A DNA stretch of 64,000 nucleotides. Source: Methylobacterium mesophilicum SR1.6/6 (lineage in GTDB: Bacteria; Pseudomonadota; Alphaproteobacteria; Rhizobiales; Beijerinckiaceae). The stretch is from contig NZ_CP043538.1 of assembly GCF_000364445.2 (NCBI RefSeq), positions 4,297,447 through 4,361,446 on the forward strand, given 5' to 3'. Positions 2,807-42,824 of the stretch are shown in pieces. Every line of letters starts with the position of its first letter. The first letter of the stretch is position 1. Under the pieces are notes generated by a model, which was not told the DNA's origin, did no database searches, and saw only the letters and a list, made by a program, of their open reading frames with translations. Both the position numbers and the translations under genes were made by a program.

Positions 2807-4036
2807 ATGCACGGGATGAGCACTCTGCAGCCCGCCTCCGCCACGCCCCGGCGCACGATCCGGCCGATCGTCGGGAGCGGCCTCGTCGCCCTCGCCATCG
2901 CCATGGGGATCGGCCGCTTCGCCTTCACGCCCCTCCTGCCGCTGATGGTACGGGACGGCACCTTGAACCCGGCGGCCGGCGCGGAGTGGGCGGCGGCCAA
3001 CTACGTCGGCTACCTCGTCGGCGCCCTGACCGCCTCGTGGTTCGGCGGAAACCCGCGCCGCGGCCTGATGGTGAGTCTGCTCGGCGTGGCGGCGACGACC
3101 CTGGCGATGGCGACGGTCGAGGCCGGCTCCGTCCGCGTCGTCGGCGCCGGGCTGCGCGCCGCCGCCGGCGTGTTCAGCGCCTGGGCTCTGGTCTGCGCGA
3201 GCGGCTGGTGCCTGACTGAACTGGCCCGGCGGCAAGCCGGCCCGGCCGGCACGTGGATCTATACGGGCGTCGGCCTCGGCATCGCGCTGGCCGGCCTGTT
3301 GACCTGGCTCGGGGGGCTTCAGGCGGCAGATACGCTGTGGCTTGAGCTGGGGCTGGCGGCGGGCGTCGGCGCGCTGCTCGTCTGGATCCTGTCGCGCGGG
3401 CAGGCCACGACGGCGCCCGGGATCACGGAACGCGTGTCGGCCGCCGCCGCGCCGGTCCGCTCGAACCGGCAACGCGCCCTGGTGCTCTGCTACGGCATCT
3501 TCGGGTTCGGCTACATCGTTCCGGCCACGTTCCTGCCGGCCATGGCGCGTGATCTGGCCCCCGATCCCCGGGTCTTCGGCCTGACATGGCCGCTGTTCGG
3601 CTTGGCCGCCGCCCTGTCGGTCGCCGCCGTGGGGCGCTGGTTGCCGCACGGGTCACGCCAGCGCATCTGGGCCCTGGCACAGGGCGTCATGGCGCTCGGC
3701 ACCGCGTTGCCGCTGTTCGCCCCGAGCCTCGCGGGCATCGCCGCGTCGGCGGTCCTCGTGGGCGGGACATTCATGGTCGCCACCATGGCGGGCTTGCAAC
3801 TTTCGCGCGAGGTGCGGCCGGACGATCCGACGCCGCTGATCGCCCGGATGACCGCCGCCTTCGCCGCCGGTCAGATCGCCGGCCCGCTATCGGTGCGCGC
3901 GATCGGGTCCGGCCGCTGGGCCGGCTGGAACGCGCTGGACTGGACCGGGGCGGTCGCCACGCTGCTGCTGATCCTGTCCGCGCTCTGGCTGTGGCGCGAT
4001 GCTCGGCCCGCCCCCGAAGCCAGGGGCTTCTCGTGA
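2807..4036 (+). CDS. YbfB/YjiJ family MFS transporter
   Basis: A 409-residue inner-membrane protein with about 12 hydrophobic segments. The N-terminal block GLVALAIAMGIGRFAFTPLL is characteristic of the YbfB/YjiJ branch of the major facilitator superfamily. Substrate is unknown; relatives are presumed exporters. GGCGGA at 2795-2800 sits six bases before ATG 2807; ATG 2816 is an alternative. It is divergent from a LysR regulator with a shared ~50-base intergenic region, so it is probably that regulator's target. Confidence 0.85.
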   Translation: MHGMSTLQPASATPRRTIRPIVGSGLVALAIAMGIGRFAFTPLLPLMVRDGTLNPAAGAEWAAANYVGYLVGALTASWFGGNPRRGLMVSLLGVAATTLAMATVEAGSVRVVGAGLRAAAGVFSAWALVCASGWCLTELARRQAGPAGTWIYTGVGLGIALAGLLTWLGGLQAADTLWLELGLAAGVGALLVWILSRGQATTAPGITERVSAAAAPVRSNRQRALVLCYGIFGFGYIVPATFLPAMARDLAPDPRVFGLTWPLFGLAAALSVAAVGRWLPHGSRQRIWALAQGVMALGTALPLFAPSLAGIAASAVLVGGTFMVATMAGLQLSREVRPDDPTPLIARMTAAFAAGQIAGPLSVRAIGSGRWAGWNALDWTGAVATLLLILSALWLWRDARPAPEARGFS

Positions 4037-4239
4037 CGCGCCGGCCGGCTCTTCCGTCAAGCCGACGGCCTTGGGGCGGCTCGGTCATGCGGCGAGCGCC
4101 GGGGTCTCGCCGGGGCGCGGCGCCGCGCCGACGACCATTCCGCTCGCCGGTCAGAATTGAAATTCTTCGCATAGGTTAGGTCTTAACCATCCGCTAACCC
4201 AAGGTGATGCTATTCTAGGTAGTGATGGAGGGCTACCCT

Positions 4240-4452
4240 ATGCTTTACGATAGTGATGACGTCGAACGCCGCCTGCCTGACGGCGCCCTGGAAGATGCCG
4301 TCATCAAAGCCATGGAACTGCGCGAGGTCGTCCTTGGCCTAGCCTTGAACGATCTCACCCTGCTGGCGGATCTCATGCTGCTGGAATTGGGAAGGCGGTC
4401 CCGAAGCGCGCTCTTGGACGGGTGCGTGCCTGAACGCCTCGCGGCCGCCTGA
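4240..4452 (+). CDS. Small hypothetical protein
   Basis: Predicted 70-residue acidic soluble protein without a recognised domain. GGAGGG at 4227-4232 lies seven bases before ATG 4240, which decides this start over GTG 4222 and ATG 4225. The first half is charged (MLYDSDDVERRLPDGALED) and the middle is Leu-rich and probably helical (VVLGLALNDLTLLADLMLLEL). No signal peptide. The preceding ~70 bases are relatively AT-rich and could hold the promoter. Function unknown; the strong ribosome-binding site is the main support. Confidence 0.6.
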   Translation: MLYDSDDVERRLPDGALEDAVIKAMELREVVLGLALNDLTLLADLMLLELGRRSRSALLDGCVPERLAAA

Positions 4453-4556
4453 GCCCTGCCGGGAACGCGCCTCCGTCTAGTCGATCCGACAGGTCAGACC
4501 CGGTCCTCCGAGGGTCTGCCGCGGCGTGGAAGCCTGTCGAGCGCCAGCCCGTCCGG

Positions 4557-4826
4557 TCAATCGGGATCCGGGTGCCGCTTGAACGTGAACGGTTCGATCT
4601 CGTGCAGGAGTTCGGTGCCGCACCACAATTGTGCACGGCCGGGTCCGCTCACAGTATAGGCCAGCTCAAGGGCTTCGCCATGATCCAGAGCGACGATGGA
4701 ATGGGTGTGGATGGTCTTACCTTGCGTGTCGAGCCGTCGGACGTGATACACCGTTTCCGTATTAATCCGGTGAAGGGTGGAAATTTCCAGTCTCTCGACG
4801 GTTTCTGATTCGATCATGACGGGCAA
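4557..4826 (-). CDS. Small hypothetical protein
   Basis: Predicted 89-residue soluble protein, unrecognised. It has alternating polar and hydrophobic stretches suggestive of a small beta fold (TVYHVRRLDTQGKTIHTHS, ALELAYTVSGPGRAQLWCG). The start could be ATG 4826 or ATG 4817 (MIES). The upstream DNA on its strand is locally AT-rich, consistent with a promoter. Convergent with the small gene ending at 4452. No function assigned. Confidence 0.55.
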   Translation of the reverse strand: MPVMIESETVERLEISTLHRINTETVYHVRRLDTQGKTIHTHSIVALDHGEALELAYTVSGPGRAQLWCGTELLHEIEPFTFKRHPDPD

Positions 4827-5168
4827 TCCTTACACAGATTAGAATTACATCCGTTCGTAGATCGCCAAAGGCGGCTCCGTGGCTGTATAAGGTGATCATT
4901 TGTGTCGAGTCAAAATTTTAAATACTCCAGTTAACTTGTGGGAAGCGTTGGATTAAAACGGGTCCGCTTGCGTGCGGCCTCTGTTGCTCGCCAGCGTCGA
5001 GGCGCCGGCTTCACGGCGGCGGAGCGTCGGGTTTCGGTCTCGGATTGCGGACGGATCGCGCCCGCCCCTGAGAGGATTCCACGAAGGCCGCAATCGAATC
5101 GGGGCGGAATTCTGTGCCACACCGGAGGCTTACGCTGATGAGGCGACGGCCTGCCAACGCAAGTCGGC
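4827..5168. other. Intergenic region with an AT-rich pocket
   Basis: No convincing gene. Bases about 4830-4935 are far more AT-rich than the surroundings, with runs such as caaaattttaaatactcc, and probably hold the promoter of the small gene at 4826. The rest (4940-5168) is GC-rich; the open frames in it are compositionally biased and have no ribosome-binding site. Confidence 0.5.
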
Positions 5169-5372
5169 TCAGACGTCGGTCCTGACGTCGCGGTTCGCGA
5201 ACCGGTCGATGACCCTAGTGACGAGCCAGACGACAAGAAAGGCTGCGGCCGAGGCGATGAACACCGCGGTCTCGGAAATATCGAGGCCGATCACGCATTC
5301 GAGGACGCTGGCCGCGGCAATGGCGAGCAGCGACAATCCGAGGGCGAACAGGCGGGGTTCGGCGAATCTCAT
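5169..5372 (-). CDS. Small two-helix membrane protein
   Basis: Predicted 67 residues with two hydrophobic segments (about residues 8-27 and 36-52) and a charged C-terminus; probably an inner-membrane protein. Its ATG overlaps the TGA of the upstream CBS-domain membrane protein by four bases, so the two are almost certainly translationally coupled and may act together. No family recognised. Confidence 0.6.
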   Translation of the reverse strand: MRFAEPRLFALGLSLLAIAAASVLECVIGLDISETAVFIASAAAFLVVWLVTRVIDRFANRDVRTDV

Positions 5373-6727
5373 GCGCGCGTCCTGTCGCGACCGTATTGGT
5401 CCAGGGCCGACCGGGGATCTCCGACGCGGCTGGCCAGCACACGGGCAACGCGGTGGCCGGCCATTTCGCTCACTTCGAAGTGCCAGCCGCCGGCCTCGAA
5501 GCCGTCGCCCGCCACGGGAATCCGCCCTAGCTGGAAGACGACGAATCCCGCGAGGGTCGAGAATTCGTCGCTCTCCTTACCCTGCGCGACACCCAGACGG
5601 TCGAGCCCTTCGGCCGCCGGCATCATGCCGTCGAGCGACAGGGAGCCGTCCGGGAACTCGATCACGGACGGCACCTCGCCATCCTCCGGGATCTCCCCGG
5701 CGATGGCTTCGAGCAGGTCCATCGGCGTGACGATGCCCTCCAGGGTCCCGTACTCATCGACGACGACCGCCAGGCGCACGGACTGACGCCGGAAGATCTC
5801 CAGGAGGTCGAGGATCGAGAGCCCTTCGGGCACGACGGTGGGCGGCTGCATGGCGGCCGCCACGTCAACGGGCTCGCCGTCGAGGATCTGATTGAGCAGA
5901 TCCTGTTTGGCGACGACGCCGACCACTTCGTCGATCATGCCCCGGCTCACGATCATCCGGACATGGTCGCACCGGCGGATGGCGGCGCGGACGGCGTCCG
6001 CGTCTTCCGTGAGGTCGATCCATTCGACATCGTGGCGCGGGGTCATGATGTCCCGTGCCCGACCTTCGCCGATCGCGAAGATGCGCTCGACCGCCTCCTG
6101 TTGCGCCTCCCGGATCAGGCCGGCCTCCTGGCTGGCCTGGACGAGCAGCTTCAGCTCCGCCGTCGAGTGCAGGGCCCCCTCGCCATGGCCCGGCTGCAGC
6201 CCGAGCAGGCGGAGGACGCCGTTGCCGAGCCCGTTCAGAAGCAGGATGGCCGGCCGGAACACGAACAGGAACAGGCCGAGGGGCCGCACGACGGCCAGGG
6301 CGGTGCGCTCGCTGCGCTGGAGGGCGAGGCTCTTGGGGGCTAACTCACCCAGGACGATGTGCAGGGCCGTCATGACCACGAAGGCGATCACGACCGCGAT
6401 GCTGTGCGCGGCGGCCGTCTCGAGGGGGGACGGCAGCCACGCCACGGCCGGTTCGATCACGTGCGCCAGGGCGGGCTCGCCGATCCACCCCAGCGCCAGC
6501 GATGCCAGCGTGATGCCGAGCTGGGTGGCCGCGAGATACGCGTCGAGGTGATCGGTTGCCCGCCGGAGCGCCGTCGCGTTCATCCGTCCGTTGGCGACCA
6601 ATTCGGCCACGCGGCTGCGACGCACCGAGACCAGCGCGAACTCCGCGGCTACGAAGAAGCCGTTGGCGAGGACGAGGACGAGGACGGCGGTGAGTCCCAG
6701 GATTGTTGACCACGCCTCATCCGACAT
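5369..6727 (-). CDS. Hemolysin family protein (CNNM/CBS/CorC domains)
   Basis: A 452-residue HlyC/CorC-family protein. Order: an N-terminal CNNM (DUF21) membrane domain of about four segments (from VLVLVLANGFFVAAEFALVS to about residue 190), a CBS pair (beginning near ARDIMTPRHDVEWIDL and including VVVDEYGTLEGIVTPMDLL), and a C-terminal CorC/transporter-associated domain. Relatives are implicated in Mg/Co efflux; the hemolysin name is historical. ATG 6727 starts at MSDEAWS, just before the first membrane segment. It is coupled to the 67-residue membrane protein downstream. Confidence 0.9.
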   Translation of the reverse strand: MSDEAWSTILGLTAVLVLVLANGFFVAAEFALVSVRRSRVAELVANGRMNATALRRATDHLDAYLAATQLGITLASLALGWIGEPALAHVIEPAVAWLPSPLETAAAHSIAVVIAFVVMTALHIVLGELAPKSLALQRSERTALAVVRPLGLFLFVFRPAILLLNGLGNGVLRLLGLQPGHGEGALHSTAELKLLVQASQEAGLIREAQQEAVERIFAIGEGRARDIMTPRHDVEWIDLTEDADAVRAAIRRCDHVRMIVSRGMIDEVVGVVAKQDLLNQILDGEPVDVAAAMQPPTVVPEGLSILDLLEIFRRQSVRLAVVVDEYGTLEGIVTPMDLLEAIAGEIPEDGEVPSVIEFPDGSLSLDGMMPAAEGLDRLGVAQGKESDEFSTLAGFVVFQLGRIPVAGDGFEAGGWHFEVSEMAGHRVARVLASRVGDPRSALDQYGRDRTRA

Positions 6728-38144: not shown

Positions 38145-39530
38145 ATGCGCGAACTCGACTACGATGTGGCGGTGATCGGCGCCGGCACGGCCGGTATCGC
38201 GGCATACCGTGCGGCCGCCGCGGCCGGCGCGCGGGCCGTGCTGATCGAGCGCGGCCCCGGCGGTACTACCTGCGCGCGGGTGGGCTGCATGCCGTCCAAG
38301 CTGCTGATCGCCGCCGGCTCGGCGGCCCACGCGGCGCGCAACACCGCGCTGTTCGGAATCCGGGTGTCGGACGTCGTGGTGGATGGCCCGGCCGTCCTGA
38401 AGCGCCTGCGCGCCGAGCGCGACCGGTTCGTCGGGAGCGTGTTCGAGGGCCTGGACGAACTCCCTGACGAGAGTCGGATCGCCGGAAGCGCCCGCTTCCA
38501 GGACACGCGGACGCTCATCATTGACGATCACACGCGCGTCCGCTTCCGGGCCGCCGTCATCGCCACGGGGTCGAGCCCGGTCGTGCCGGAGCCGCTGCGC
38601 GCGCTCGACGATCGTCTCCTGACCACCGACACCCTGTTCGAGATCCCCGATCTGCCGGACTCGCTCGCGGTCCTCGGCGCCGGAGCGGTCGGTATCGAGA
38701 TCGCGCAGGCCATGGCGCGGCTCGGCGTCGCCGTTACGGTGATCGATTCGGGCGAGACCGTTGCCGGTCTGTCCGAGCCCGCCCTTGCGCGCCAGGCGGC
38801 CGAGATCTTCGGCGCCGAGTTCGACCTCCAGCTCGGTGCTAAGGTTCAGGCTGCGGCCCCGGACGGTGACGGTGTGCGCCTCGATTGGACGGATCGCGCA
38901 GGGCGCGCACAGGTGACGCGCGCATCGCGCGTCCTCGCTGCGGCCGGCCGGTCCCCCAATCTCGCGGGCCTCGGACTCGAGGCGGCCGGCCTGCGCCCCG
39001 GAAAGGGCGGCGTGCCGGATTTCGATCGGTGCAGTCTGGTCTGCGCGGGCGGGCAGAACCTGATCGCCGGTGACGCGGACGCGTGGCGGCCGGTGCTGCA
39101 CGAAGCGAGCCGGCAGGGGGAGATCGCTGGGGCCAACGCGGCGGCCCTCGCGGCAGGGCGACCGGTCGCAAGTCCCGATCCTTGGCCGAGCTTCGCCATG
39201 GTCTTCACCCATCCGCAGGCCGCCGTGATCGGCGCGCCCTACGACCCGGATGCCGCGGACCGCGTGGTCGGAACGATGGACTTCTCAGACCAGGGGCGAG
39301 CCCGGGTCGAGGGGCTGAACCAGGGCGGCATCCGCATCTGGGCCGATCGCGGCGGCCGGTTGCTGGGCGGCGAAATGCTCGGACCGGCCGTGGAGCATCT
39401 TGCGCATTTGTTGATTTATGTTGTTGCCCAGGGCTTGTCGGTTCCGAGCCTGGAAGCGTGGCCGACTTATCATCCGACAATGGAAGAGGGGCTTATGAGC
39501 GCCCTGTCGGACGTCCAGCGAAAGATTTGA
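38145..39530 (+). CDS. Class I pyridine nucleotide-disulfide oxidoreductase (dihydrolipoyl dehydrogenase-like)
   Basis: 461 residues. FAD site DVAVIGAGTAGIAAYRAA; redox-active pair in CARVGC (Cys43 and Cys48); NAD site AVLGAGAVGIEIAQAMARL; C-terminal dimer-interface motif TYHPTMEEGL with the conserved His-Pro. It resembles dihydrolipoyl dehydrogenase, but no 2-oxoacid dehydrogenase genes are nearby, so its role is open (mercuric- or glutathione-reductase-like activity is possible). It precedes the phytochrome kinase gene by 85 bases on the same strand, so they could be co-transcribed. Confidence 0.85.
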   Translation: MRELDYDVAVIGAGTAGIAAYRAAAAAGARAVLIERGPGGTTCARVGCMPSKLLIAAGSAAHAARNTALFGIRVSDVVVDGPAVLKRLRAERDRFVGSVFEGLDELPDESRIAGSARFQDTRTLIIDDHTRVRFRAAVIATGSSPVVPEPLRALDDRLLTTDTLFEIPDLPDSLAVLGAGAVGIEIAQAMARLGVAVTVIDSGETVAGLSEPALARQAAEIFGAEFDLQLGAKVQAAAPDGDGVRLDWTDRAGRAQVTRASRVLAAAGRSPNLAGLGLEAAGLRPGKGGVPDFDRCSLVCAGGQNLIAGDADAWRPVLHEASRQGEIAGANAAALAAGRPVASPDPWPSFAMVFTHPQAAVIGAPYDPDAADRVVGTMDFSDQGRARVEGLNQGGIRIWADRGGRLLGGEMLGPAVEHLAHLLIYVVAQGLSVPSLEAWPTYHPTMEEGLMSALSDVQRKI

Positions 39531-39615: not shown

Positions 39616-42231
39616 ATGCCGCCGAGCCAGACCCCAGATAGCGGCATCGACCTTGATGCGCTCGCCCTCGACGAACTCGACCGCTTGGATCAGGGCGTGA
39701 TCGGCCTGGATCCGGCCGGCAGCGTCGTGGTTTTCAGCGAAGGTGCCAGTTCGATCTCGGGTCTGTCGCGCGAGGCGGTGCTCGGGCGCGATTACTTCCG
39801 CGACGTGATGCCGGGCACGAACGTGCCGGGCTTCCGCGGCCGTTTCCTGGCGGGTGCTCGCCGGGGGGGCCTGGACGAAAGCTTCGATTACGTCTTCGGC
39901 CGGCTTCCGCAGCCTCTGCGTGCCCGGGTCCGCATGCGCCATGGTCAGGTCGCGGGCACACAGCCGGTCACGTGGCTGACGATCGACCCGCTTGAGAGCC
40001 TCGGGGCTGGCCTGTCGCGCGAGGCCGTGATGGCGGCGATCGGGCGGCGTGTCCGCGCCGAGCCGGTGGATGCCAGCCTCTGCGAGCGCGAGCCGATCCA
40101 CATTCCGGGCTCGATCCAGCCCAACGCCGTGATGCTGGCCGCCGATGCCGCGACCCTTCACGTGCAGGCTTATTCGGCCAACGTCTCCGAGATCGTCGAT
40201 CCGGTCGAGCCGCCGCTGGCTGGGCGGCCCCTGGCCGACGTGCTGCCGGCCGATTTCGTCGCGGCGATCCGGGTCCGGCTCGGAGGCGGGACCCTGGAAG
40301 ACGGCCGCTCGCTCCGGCGCCGGATCACGTTTCTGGGCTCCGGCGCGACCTACCACGCCGTCGCCCACGCCCATGCTGGGCGCCTGATCGTCGAGCTGGA
40401 ACTTGAACCGGATTCCGACGACGATTTCGCGACCGCGAGTCAGGTTGATACCGAACTCGCCGTCGGGCGCCTGCGCGAGGCCGGGAGCTTGGCGGACGCC
40501 GCCCGGATCGCGGCCCTGGAGATCCGGGCGCTCACCGGGTTCGAGGCGGTCTTGGTCTACCGCTTCGACACCGACTGGAACGGCGAGGCGGTGGCCGAGG
40601 ATAAGGCGCCCGACTGGTCGCGCAGTCTCCTCGGTCTGCGCTTTCCCGCCTCCGACATCCCCGCCCAGGCCCGCGCCCTCTATACGAAGGCCAAGAGCCG
40701 CTTCGTGATCGACCGCGACAGCGTGCCGGTCGGCTTGGTGGCCGCCCCGGGGGGCGGCAACGCCCCCATCGACCTGACCTTCGCGCAGCACCGGACGCTC
40801 TCGCCGATCCACCTGGAGTATCAGCGCAACCTCGGCGTGAACGGCTCGATGTCGATCTCGATCATGGTCGAGGGCCGGCTCTGGGGCCTGATGATCGGAC
40901 ATCATCGCCGCCCGCACTATGTCACGCCGGAGACCCGCTCCGCCGCGACGGTCCTGACCGACGCCTTCGCCATGCGGGTGCAGGAGATCGAGTCGCGCCG
41001 TCTCTGGGACGAGCGGCAGGCCCATCTCGACGTCGAGGGTCGGCTGGTCCGCGGGCTGACCCGCTCCGACGACTTCGTGGCCGCCTTGACCACCGGAGCG
41101 ACCACGCTCCTCGACCTGTTCAGCGCCACCGGGGCCGGCATCGTCTCGGGCGGGCGGGTCACGCTGATCGGCCGGACGCCGCCGGCCAAGGCGGTGACGG
41201 CGATCGCGGCTTGGCTGCGGGATCGCGTGCCGGCGAGCGAGGGCGGCTACAGCAGCAACACCTTCTCCGCCGAGTATCCGAAAGCTGCTCTCCACCGGGA
41301 GATCGCCAGCGGCCTGCTCGCCGCTTTCGTGGACGAGTCGCGCGAGAACCTGCTGCTCTGGTTCCGTCCCGAAGTCCCCAGCACGGTCACCTGGGGCGGC
41401 GATCCGCGCAAGCCGGTGCTGGCGGGCAGTGGCCCAGTGGCGGTCCTCCCGCGGCGGTCCTTCGAGCGCTGGATCGAGGAGCGCACCGGCTTCGCCAGCC
41501 CGTGGGCCGATTGGCAGATCCAGCTTGCCGGCTCCCTGGCGGAGGCCGTGGAGGGCGTCGTGCTGCGGCAGCGCCGCAAGATCGACGAACTGACCAGCCT
41601 GCTCGCCGAGAAGGAGCGGCTCCTCGAACAGAAGGACCTGCTGACCCGGGAAATCGACCACCGGGTCAAGAATTCCCTCCAGATCGTTTCGGCTTTCCTG
41701 CAGATGCAGCGCCGCCAGATCGCAGACGGCGACGCGCGGCAGGCCTTCGCCGACACCTCCGCGCGGGTGATGAGCGTCGCGCGCGTGCATGACAGCTTGT
41801 ACCAGGCCGAGCGGGTCGACGAGGTCGATCTCGGCCAGACCATCGAGAGCCTGTGCAACGACCTCGCCGGCTTGGCGGGCGACGGCCATGCCGTCGACCT
41901 CACCGCCGAGCCGGGGCTGATGGTGCCCTACCGCAAGGCGGTGGCCCTCTCGCTGATCGCCACGGAACTTGTCACCAACGCCTTCAAGTACGCGGCGAAC
42001 CCGGCCGGCGGCGGCCGGGTCGAGGTCAGCGTCTCGGCCTCCGGCCCCGGCGAGGTGCAGCTCCGCGTCTGCGACGACGGCGGTGGCCTGCCCGACGACT
42101 GGGCCGACGCCAAGGCCCGCGGCAAGGGATCGGGTCTCGGCATGAAGCTCATCCGGGCAATGTTGGACCAGATCAACGCCAAGCTCGACGTCGCCAACAA
42201 TCCCGGCGCCTGCTTCACGATCACCGCGTGA
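39616..42231 (+). CDS. bphP: Bacteriophytochrome histidine kinase with PYP-like N-terminal domain
   Basis: 871 residues, no membrane segments. Order: PYP-like PAS (about 19-126), phytochrome PAS with chromophore Cys156 (CEREPIHIPGSIQP), GAF (about 290-460; PASDIPAQAR with Asp347, SPIHLEY with His399), PHY (LLWFRPE; tongue motif PRRSF at 612-616), HisKA_2 kinase (His682 in REIDHRVKNSLQ) and HATPase (ELVTNAFKYA, GSGLGMKL). The core residues predict a biliverdin-binding red/far-red sensor. In the PYP-like domain, residues aligned with the chromophore Cys69, Tyr42 and Glu46 of PYP are Gly67, Phe40 and Ala44, so it probably binds no p-coumarate. Stop overlaps bphO start. Confidence 0.9.
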   Translation: MPPSQTPDSGIDLDALALDELDRLDQGVIGLDPAGSVVVFSEGASSISGLSREAVLGRDYFRDVMPGTNVPGFRGRFLAGARRGGLDESFDYVFGRLPQPLRARVRMRHGQVAGTQPVTWLTIDPLESLGAGLSREAVMAAIGRRVRAEPVDASLCEREPIHIPGSIQPNAVMLAADAATLHVQAYSANVSEIVDPVEPPLAGRPLADVLPADFVAAIRVRLGGGTLEDGRSLRRRITFLGSGATYHAVAHAHAGRLIVELELEPDSDDDFATASQVDTELAVGRLREAGSLADAARIAALEIRALTGFEAVLVYRFDTDWNGEAVAEDKAPDWSRSLLGLRFPASDIPAQARALYTKAKSRFVIDRDSVPVGLVAAPGGGNAPIDLTFAQHRTLSPIHLEYQRNLGVNGSMSISIMVEGRLWGLMIGHHRRPHYVTPETRSAATVLTDAFAMRVQEIESRRLWDERQAHLDVEGRLVRGLTRSDDFVAALTTGATTLLDLFSATGAGIVSGGRVTLIGRTPPAKAVTAIAAWLRDRVPASEGGYSSNTFSAEYPKAALHREIASGLLAAFVDESRENLLLWFRPEVPSTVTWGGDPRKPVLAGSGPVAVLPRRSFERWIEERTGFASPWADWQIQLAGSLAEAVEGVVLRQRRKIDELTSLLAEKERLLEQKDLLTREIDHRVKNSLQIVSAFLQMQRRQIADGDARQAFADTSARVMSVARVHDSLYQAERVDEVDLGQTIESLCNDLAGLAGDGHAVDLTAEPGLMVPYRKAVALSLIATELVTNAFKYAANPAGGGRVEVSVSASGPGEVQLRVCDDGGGLPDDWADAKARGKGSGLGMKLIRAMLDQINAKLDVANNPGACFTITA

Positions 42232-42824
42232 GCCCGTCCACCGCGATGGAGCGCGCCAACCTGCATGCCCGCCTGCGCGCGGCGACCGCGCCGGCCCACC
42301 AAGCCCTTGAGGACGACCTCGACTGGCGAGCGCGGGTGGCGACGCTGTCCGGCTACCGCGACCTGCTGGCGCGGCTCTACGGCTTCCACGCCGTGTGGGA
42401 AGCGACCATCGGGCTAGGGCTCGCCGACGAGGCGTTCCTCGCGCCGCGCCGCCGCCTCACCCGTCTGGCCGCCGACCTCGACCATCTCGGTCTGGCGCCG
42501 GGCGCGGTCGCGGCGCTCCCGCGGCCGGCGCCTCATGTCCTGGCCGATCCCGCCGCGGCGACCGGCGCGCTCTACGTGCTGGAAGGCTCGACGCTGGGCG
42601 GCCAGCTGATCGGCCGGCACATAGCCGGGCTGCACGGATTCTCGAACGACGGGCTCGCCTATTACCGGGCCCACGGTGCCGCGGCCGGCGCGATGTGGAC
42701 CGCCTTCCGCTCGCGCCTCGAACGCTTCGCGGATGATCCCGAGGCGGAGGCCTCCCTCACCGGAGCGGCCGTGACTACGTTCGCGGCCATGCGCGGATGG
42801 CTCTGCCCGGCGCCGACCGCCTGA
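42228..42824 (+). CDS. bphO: Biliverdin-producing heme oxygenase
   Basis: A 198-residue BphO-type heme oxygenase that opens heme to biliverdin, the chromophore of the upstream phytochrome. Proximal His in LRAATAPAHQALE; distal-helix region YVLEGSTLGGQLIGRHI. GTG 42228 overlaps the bphP stop in GTGA (four bases), indicating translational coupling; ATG 42246 is an alternative. The pair is thus a self-contained red-light sensor. It ends 10 bases from the convergent LysR gene. Confidence 0.9.
   Translation: MSPSTAMERANLHARLRAATAPAHQALEDDLDWRARVATLSGYRDLLARLYGFHAVWEATIGLGLADEAFLAPRRRLTRLAADLDHLGLAPGAVAALPRPAPHVLADPAAATGALYVLEGSTLGGQLIGRHIAGLHGFSNDGLAYYRAHGAAAGAMWTAFRSRLERFADDPEAEASLTGAAVTTFAAMRGWLCPAPTA

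Follow-up and report, generated by a model that had tools for sequence, protein, structure and literature searches.

The 64,000-nucleotide stretch of Methylobacterium mesophilicum SR1.6/6 analyzed here (the window; contig NZ_CP043538.1, positions 4,297,447 to 4,361,446, part of a single-contig genome) encodes a Ppr-type bacteriophytochrome histidine kinase of 871 amino acids at 39616..42231. It is read from an ATG start on the plus strand, as are all features described below. The protein opens with a domain resembling photoactive yellow protein (PYP) but lacking its chromophore site (residues 13-125; 39652..39990). A PAS_2 domain follows, beginning at the biliverdin cysteine Cys156 (residues 156-262; 40081..40401; PF08446, E = 1.3e-16), and leads into GAF (residues 292-454; 40489..40977; PF01590, E = 4.5e-11) and PHY domains (residues 473-653; 41032..41574; PF00360, E = 2.9e-44). 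The kinase portion consists of a HisKA_2 dimerisation/phosphoacceptor domain carrying the motif DHRVKN (residues 679-751; 41650..41868; PF07568, E = 1.4e-22) and a HATPase_c domain (residues 776-870; 41941..42225; PF02518, E = 1.4e-13). This succession of PYP-like domain, PAS2-GAF-PHY and histidine kinase is the domain order of Ppr.

Named homologues of the kinase are nearly all from Methylobacterium. The core supports the canonical biliverdin-type assignment made in a preliminary description of this DNA: an N-terminal cysteine accompanies PAS2-GAF-PHY, and neither Met1 nor Cys156 varies in a 24-sequence alignment that includes the window protein (Cys156 in 24/24). Based on these domains, the kinase is predicted to undergo Pr/Pfr photoconversion. 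Scores of 80 bits against PF07568 (cut-off 22.3) and 35 bits against PF07536 (cut-off 22.8) place it in the HisKA_2/HWE class. It scores 258 bits against the NCBIfam equivalog NF041576, under the cut-off of 1040, and its kinase domain reaches 109.5 bits against NF051872 (PhyK), under 750; a literature search for a link to PhyR and the general stress response, prompted by the latter match, gave nothing. The same genome encodes a second phytochrome (L163; G000:C1:3527742-3528281), a PAS2-GAF-PHY-HWE kinase that shows no PYP match and, at its C terminus, a weak match to a receiver domain.

The PYP resemblance of the roughly 110 leading residues, also proposed in the preliminary description, is specific. 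Residues 17-112 match TIGR02373 (photo_yellow) with E = 7.4e-19 and 68 bits, compared to a curated cut-off of 143 bits, so the domain is a homologue of that family under its equivalog line. This model recovers no more than about one in five PYP homologues, according to Xing, Gumerov and Zhulin (2022; PMC9664959), cited here and below from the available part of its text. The generic Pfam PAS model matches more weakly (E = 7.7e-6). The top PDB sequence match is the PYP domain of Rhodospirillum centenum Ppr (1mzu; E = 3.1e-18), and the entries after it are all PYPs or tags derived from PYP down to E = 1.2, where two unrelated entries appear. A fold search likewise ranks 37 PYP-derived entries (PYP, FAST and nanoFAST) above any other PAS domain. 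Together, the family model, the PDB matches and the fold search eliminate a generic PAS domain, and this part of the protein is predicted to retain the PYP fold. The domain shares the fold, N-terminal cap and glycine/phenylalanine scaffold of Halorhodospira halophila PYP; unlike that protein, it lacks the chromophore residues and forms part of a kinase.

What the domain has lost is the pigment site. Opposite PYP Tyr42, Glu46, Thr50, Arg52 and Cys69, the window protein carries Phe40 (39733..39735), Ala44 (39745..39747), Ser48, Leu50 and Gly67 (39814..39816), the last at the chromophore-binding position. The three replacements named in the preliminary description, Gly67, Phe40 and Ala44, thus align as claimed, and each is fixed in the 27 loci that group most closely with the window protein (the window clade). 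R. centenum Ppr, with the same domain order, retains Tyr42, Glu46, Arg52 and Cys69, none of which survives in the window protein. With them go the residues that would form the thioester bond and hydrogen-bond the phenolate, and judging from the sequence, this domain is not expected to bind p-coumaric acid any more.

Contrary to what the preliminary description had implied, Cys69 substitution as such is not new: many Cys69-substituted PYPs are methylobacterial Ppr homologues (Xing et al. 2022). That study defines the PYP photoreceptor family by a conserved Cys69, which the window domain lacks. These share genus, architecture, operon and Cys69 loss with the window protein, but that study stresses a Y42C/S50C pair found in some of them, and the window clade has neither cysteine (F40 and S48 instead). 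A 2025 analysis by Dohmen et al. (PMC12826048) covers 984 Cys69-containing PYP homologues, and we found no treatment of Cys69-less homologues in the available part of that paper. A literature search, made without supplementary files, found no study of the cysteine-free clade.

To place these substitutions, we surveyed 111 genomes of the genus. A PYP-domain search finds matches in 93, and 89 of these contain the fused form: 93 fused loci, 18 with Cys69 intact and 75 without it (71 genomes). The 18 intact loci keep Y42, E46, S50, R52 and C69, and no genome among the 89 carries both states in fused form. The four remaining genomes have only a single-domain PYP. Over the length read, fused loci are about 59-100% identical to the window phytochrome, except L085 (45% over the part read), whose kinase is not in its frame and which was excluded from the trees and dN/dS. 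The window's own locus is entered three times, as L001, L003 and L126.

Among the 22 genomes without a fused Ppr (18 unmatched and the four with a single domain), a phytochrome-core search finds phytochromes in 20. Identity does not exceed 40% among their near-full-length matches (one 43% match is a 236-aa fragment), and no orthologue without a PYP domain was seen in these 22. One unmatched genome, G078, is 70% complete. Two others, G057 and G058, give weak matches to a Cys69-intact query (E = 7.6e-4 and 1e-4), which we take as other PAS domains; the G058 stretch (L201) showed no biliverdin-site motif. In a search of 298 family genomes, only Methylobacterium gives strong matches in frames long enough for a kinase; in other genera, the matches are weak or in short frames.

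Single-domain PYPs with Cys69, Tyr42 and Glu46 occur in 11 Methylobacterium genomes (L096-L106). Seven of these also have a Cys-less Ppr, and none has a Cys69-intact one. A diverged clade of nine Cys-less Ppr paralogues (L087-L095) stands alongside the main Ppr in two genomes (G086 and G089).

The Cys-less loci differ from the intact ones at more than the cysteine. With the nine degenerate paralogues set aside, 66 Cys-less loci are separated from the Cys69-intact loci by 17 alignment columns. Glu46 is Ala in 65/66, Arg52 is hydrophobic in 66/66, and position 98 is Arg in 64/66 where the intact loci have Phe (18/18), making Arg96 of the window protein (39901..39903) a mark of the Cys-less lineage. 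Some of the 17 columns changed on the intact side: PYP Phe96 is Phe in Cys-less loci and Tyr in intact ones. In the window clade, I29, F40, A44, S48, V64, M65, P66, G67, F94 and R96 are fixed (27/27). Scaffold glycines and phenylalanines are mostly retained in the main Cys-less groups, with some lost in the degenerate clade.

A genome-contig scan extended the comparison to other genera. Among the best 80 of 145 places encoding a relative, 45 lie in other genera and 44 of these have Cys69; the sole exception is Thiohalocapsa halophila L240, a 1124-aa frame with Ala at that position. Related Chromatiaceae loci (L233 and L236-L238) retain the cysteine. A Ppr of Roseicella frigidaeris (L231) retains Cys69 and Glu46 and has Cys at the Tyr42 position. 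The 35 Methylobacterium loci in the same best 80 comprise 11 with Cys69 and 24 without. These 11 (L215-L225; M. platani, M. terricola, M. aquaticum and others) supply species names, whereas the trees and linkage counts used other loci of the genus. They have the architecture and operon of the window protein, and their chromophore site is intact in 11/11, as in 18/18 of the surveyed loci.

In a phytochrome-core tree built without the PYP domain, one branch holds the Cys-less loci, with a FastTree support of 0.967 (75 rows) and an SH-aLRT of 96 in a quick IQ-TREE search on 40 of those rows. Cys69-intact Methylobacterium loci fall into a separate group (FastTree 0.903, 17 rows; IQ-TREE 99, 10 rows), and orthology to the window Ppr is indicated by the sister-group relationship and the common operon. 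The root was set by long-branched outgroups. Besides this rooting, the direction is loss rather than gain because nearly all the other-genus relatives in the best 80 of 145 have the cysteine. Mapping its state on a 60-row tree requires two changes, one of them at L200 of another genus, where the state was read by eye; within the genus, the distribution fits a single event. L200, a phytochrome from elsewhere in the family (864-aa frame, 2811-5402), begins with a PYP-like stretch that seems to lack Cys69 too, and it sits on a long branch.

According to the preliminary description, orthologues with the cysteine intact would reduce the loss to a local mutation. Such orthologues do exist, in 18 species, but they form the sister group, and the loss is therefore old and fixed. 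The residue survey together with the tree rules out a local mutation.

An emptied domain might simply be a relic, dead but retained through its fusion to the kinase, as the preliminary description also considered. The loss of the functional residues favors this possibility, but the pattern of selection in the window clade does not. Across its 27 loci (349/351 pairs usable), the median pairwise ratio of nonsynonymous to synonymous substitution rates (dN/dS) is 0.150 for the PYP domain, under PAS2 (0.276) and PHY (0.226) of the same proteins and above GAF (0.075). In Cys69-intact loci (14 of 18), the values are 0.205 for PYP, 0.344 for PAS2 and 0.206 for PHY. The window-clade domain is under purifying selection. 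With residues invariant over 27 species and no domain-less orthologue seen, we regard a relic as very unlikely for this clade.

The timing of change was read from the ratio of PYP to core branch lengths on one topology, with L226, L233, L236 and L200 left out. This ratio is 4.9 on the Cys-less stem and 2.95 on the Cys69-intact stem; inside a 12-row group around the window, which includes L030-L032, it is 1.66. The PYP domain went through rapid change near the time of the loss, and in the window clade conservation has returned.

The genes on either side of the kinase are also conserved. Downstream lies bphO, a heme oxygenase gene (42228..42824; PF01126, E = 2.7e-12), whose probable GTG start overlaps the kinase stop in GTGA. 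The preliminary description had noted this overlap, which is real and recurs in the window clade, the Cys69-intact clade and many other loci; an in-frame ATG 18 bases downstream is a possible alternative start. GTG is the only listed start near the kinase stop in 9/11 window-clade relatives; of the other two, one has a further ATG and one has no bphO found. Coupling of bphO synthesis to the kinase is supported. Upstream, and unmentioned in the preliminary description, a dihydrolipoyl dehydrogenase-type flavoprotein gene (38145..39530; NF004939, 520.6 bits, cut-off 435) stops 85 bp before the kinase on the same strand. An operon of dihydrolipoamide dehydrogenase and heme oxygenase with methylobacterial Ppr is already in print (Xing et al. 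2022).

We counted linkage at loci with flanking sequence (11 of the 27 in the window clade and 20 of 21 "other" Cys-less loci). The dehydrogenase stands upstream of 16/18 Cys69-intact, 11/11 window-clade, 18/18 Y42C/S50C-subclade and 19/20 other Cys-less loci, with bphO downstream in 14, 10, 18 and 19 of these, respectively; one neighbor-gene miss sits near a contig end. In the Y42C/S50C subclade, kinase-bphO gaps are longer than the four-base overlap. With the window proteins as queries, neither gene was found beside the nine diverged paralogues or beside nine loci of other genera. The dehydrogenase paralogue is thus kept upstream of Ppr regardless of chromophore state.

A dehydrogenase in the operon could hint at redox sensing, which Xing et al. 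(2022) proposed for the Y42C and S50C forms. Both cysteines do occur together in 16/75 Cys-less loci, all within one subclade (16/18 of its loci). In the window clade, neither PYP position 42 nor 50 is a cysteine (0/27), and residues 12-125 contain no cysteine at all in 27/27 of its loci and in 50/75 Cys-less loci overall. The published cysteine-pair form is therefore excluded for the window protein. Nor does the dehydrogenase support redox sensing, because it is nearly as common beside the Cys69-intact Ppr (16/18) as beside Cys-less Ppr outside the paralogue clade (48/49 pooled). We consider a redox role for this domain extremely unlikely.

Another possibility is that p-coumaric acid or a similar phenol still binds non-covalently and makes the domain a weak blue-light sensor. 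The predicted PYP fold would allow this, and Methylobacterium lives on plants, which supply phenylpropanoids. On the other hand, Tyr42, Glu46, Arg52 and Cys69 are all replaced, and docking of p-coumaric acid failed for another methylobacterial Ppr (Xing et al. 2022). Histidine ammonia lyase is raised in the same study as another enzyme that might lead to p-coumaric acid. We find no ammonia lyase (PF00221) in the window's genome. The family is present in 31/111 genomes of the genus: 18/18 Cys69-intact, 5/71 with only Cys-less Ppr and 8/22 without a fused Ppr. All 18 intact genomes have a form with a Leu-Ser-His signature (L165-L184), which we take to be histidine ammonia lyase; five further matches are of a third, unclassified kind. 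This association fits pigment loss, but it is confounded because the Cys69-intact genomes are one kin group (the 17 of 18 in the phytochrome tree group together) and share the histidine-type form, and we do not build on it. Overall, residual blue-light sensing appears highly improbable.

Given that the loss is old and common to most of the genus and that the domain is still selected, it probably has another job. Our preferred reading, which we hold with modest confidence, is that the pigment-less PYP domain serves as a constitutive structural or allosteric module of a Ppr-type red/far-red receptor kinase. Acting on the phytochrome dimer, the domain would control how stable the biliverdin photocycle is or how it reverts in the dark, and through this the output of the kinase; this role would replace the blue-light tuning thought to come from the intact domain in Ppr. 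The heme oxygenase of the overlapping bphO gene would provide the biliverdin. The phosphate would pass to an unlinked response regulator: no receiver domain lies in the window, and the nearest of 121 genome-wide PF00072 matches lie some 76 kb before the kinase gene and some 45 kb beyond it, in line with the preliminary description, which saw no adjacent regulator. R. centenum Ppr binds CheW via its kinase domain, according to the available part of PMC2993699.

Several observations weigh against a structural role. Constraint on the Cys-less PYP domain is weaker in loci beyond the window clade: median dN/dS is 0.332 in the Y42C/S50C subclade (17 of 18 loci; PAS2 0.231, PHY 0.283) and 0.376 in other Cys-less loci (13 of 21; PAS2 0.415, PHY 0.333), the nine degenerate paralogues being excluded. 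Pairwise dN/dS is a simple method, and synonymous sites are partly saturated. The PYP/core ratio is 2.40 inside the Cys-less clade compared to 1.26 inside the Cys69-intact clade, a pattern that fits partial relaxation or a new function equally well. This relatively faster evolution, the dN/dS of 0.33-0.38 in the other groups and the strongly diverged paralogues are also what a relic would predict. Finally, the contact of the PYP domain with the phytochrome, or its effect there, is something we infer, as is the role as a whole; what computation shows directly is that the pigment site is gone, that its loss is old, that the fold is predicted to persist and that selection acts on the domain.

The main rival to a structural role is that the emptied pocket binds some other small molecule non-covalently and gates the kinase, creating a light-plus-ligand sensor. 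The pocket set fixed in the window clade (A44, M65, G67, L/F at 50 and Arg96) is compatible with this, as is the burst of change on the Cys-less stem followed by strong constraint. FAST, an engineered PYP tag with a C69G-type mutation, binds its ligands reversibly and is among the fold matches. No ligand is known, however, and without the polar groups that anchor the phenolate, binding would be unlike that of FAST. In addition, loci beyond the window clade have G, S or A at position 67, M65 may itself occupy the cavity, and Leu50 is not a sign of pigment loss, as Leu occupies PYP position 52 in 11/11 single-domain PYPs with Cys69. We consider a ligand sensor rather unlikely. A fuller version, with one ancestral loss followed by rebuilding of the pocket (Ala44, Met65, Gly67, hydrophobic 50, Arg96) as a cysteine-free, non-covalent ligand sensor while sister lineages remodeled that pocket in other ways, one with a cysteine pair, seems to us distinctly unlikely. 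If true, it would mean that a two-color light receptor became a red-light-plus-metabolite receptor.

PYP is a model photoreceptor, but its signaling role in fusion kinases is poorly known. Because the window clade has no cysteines in its PYP domain, redox sensing as published cannot account for methylobacterial Ppr in general. With 18 species that keep the chromophore residue and 71 that lack it, mostly in the same operon, the genus offers a natural experiment on what a PYP domain, responsive to blue light or not, does to a phytochrome kinase.

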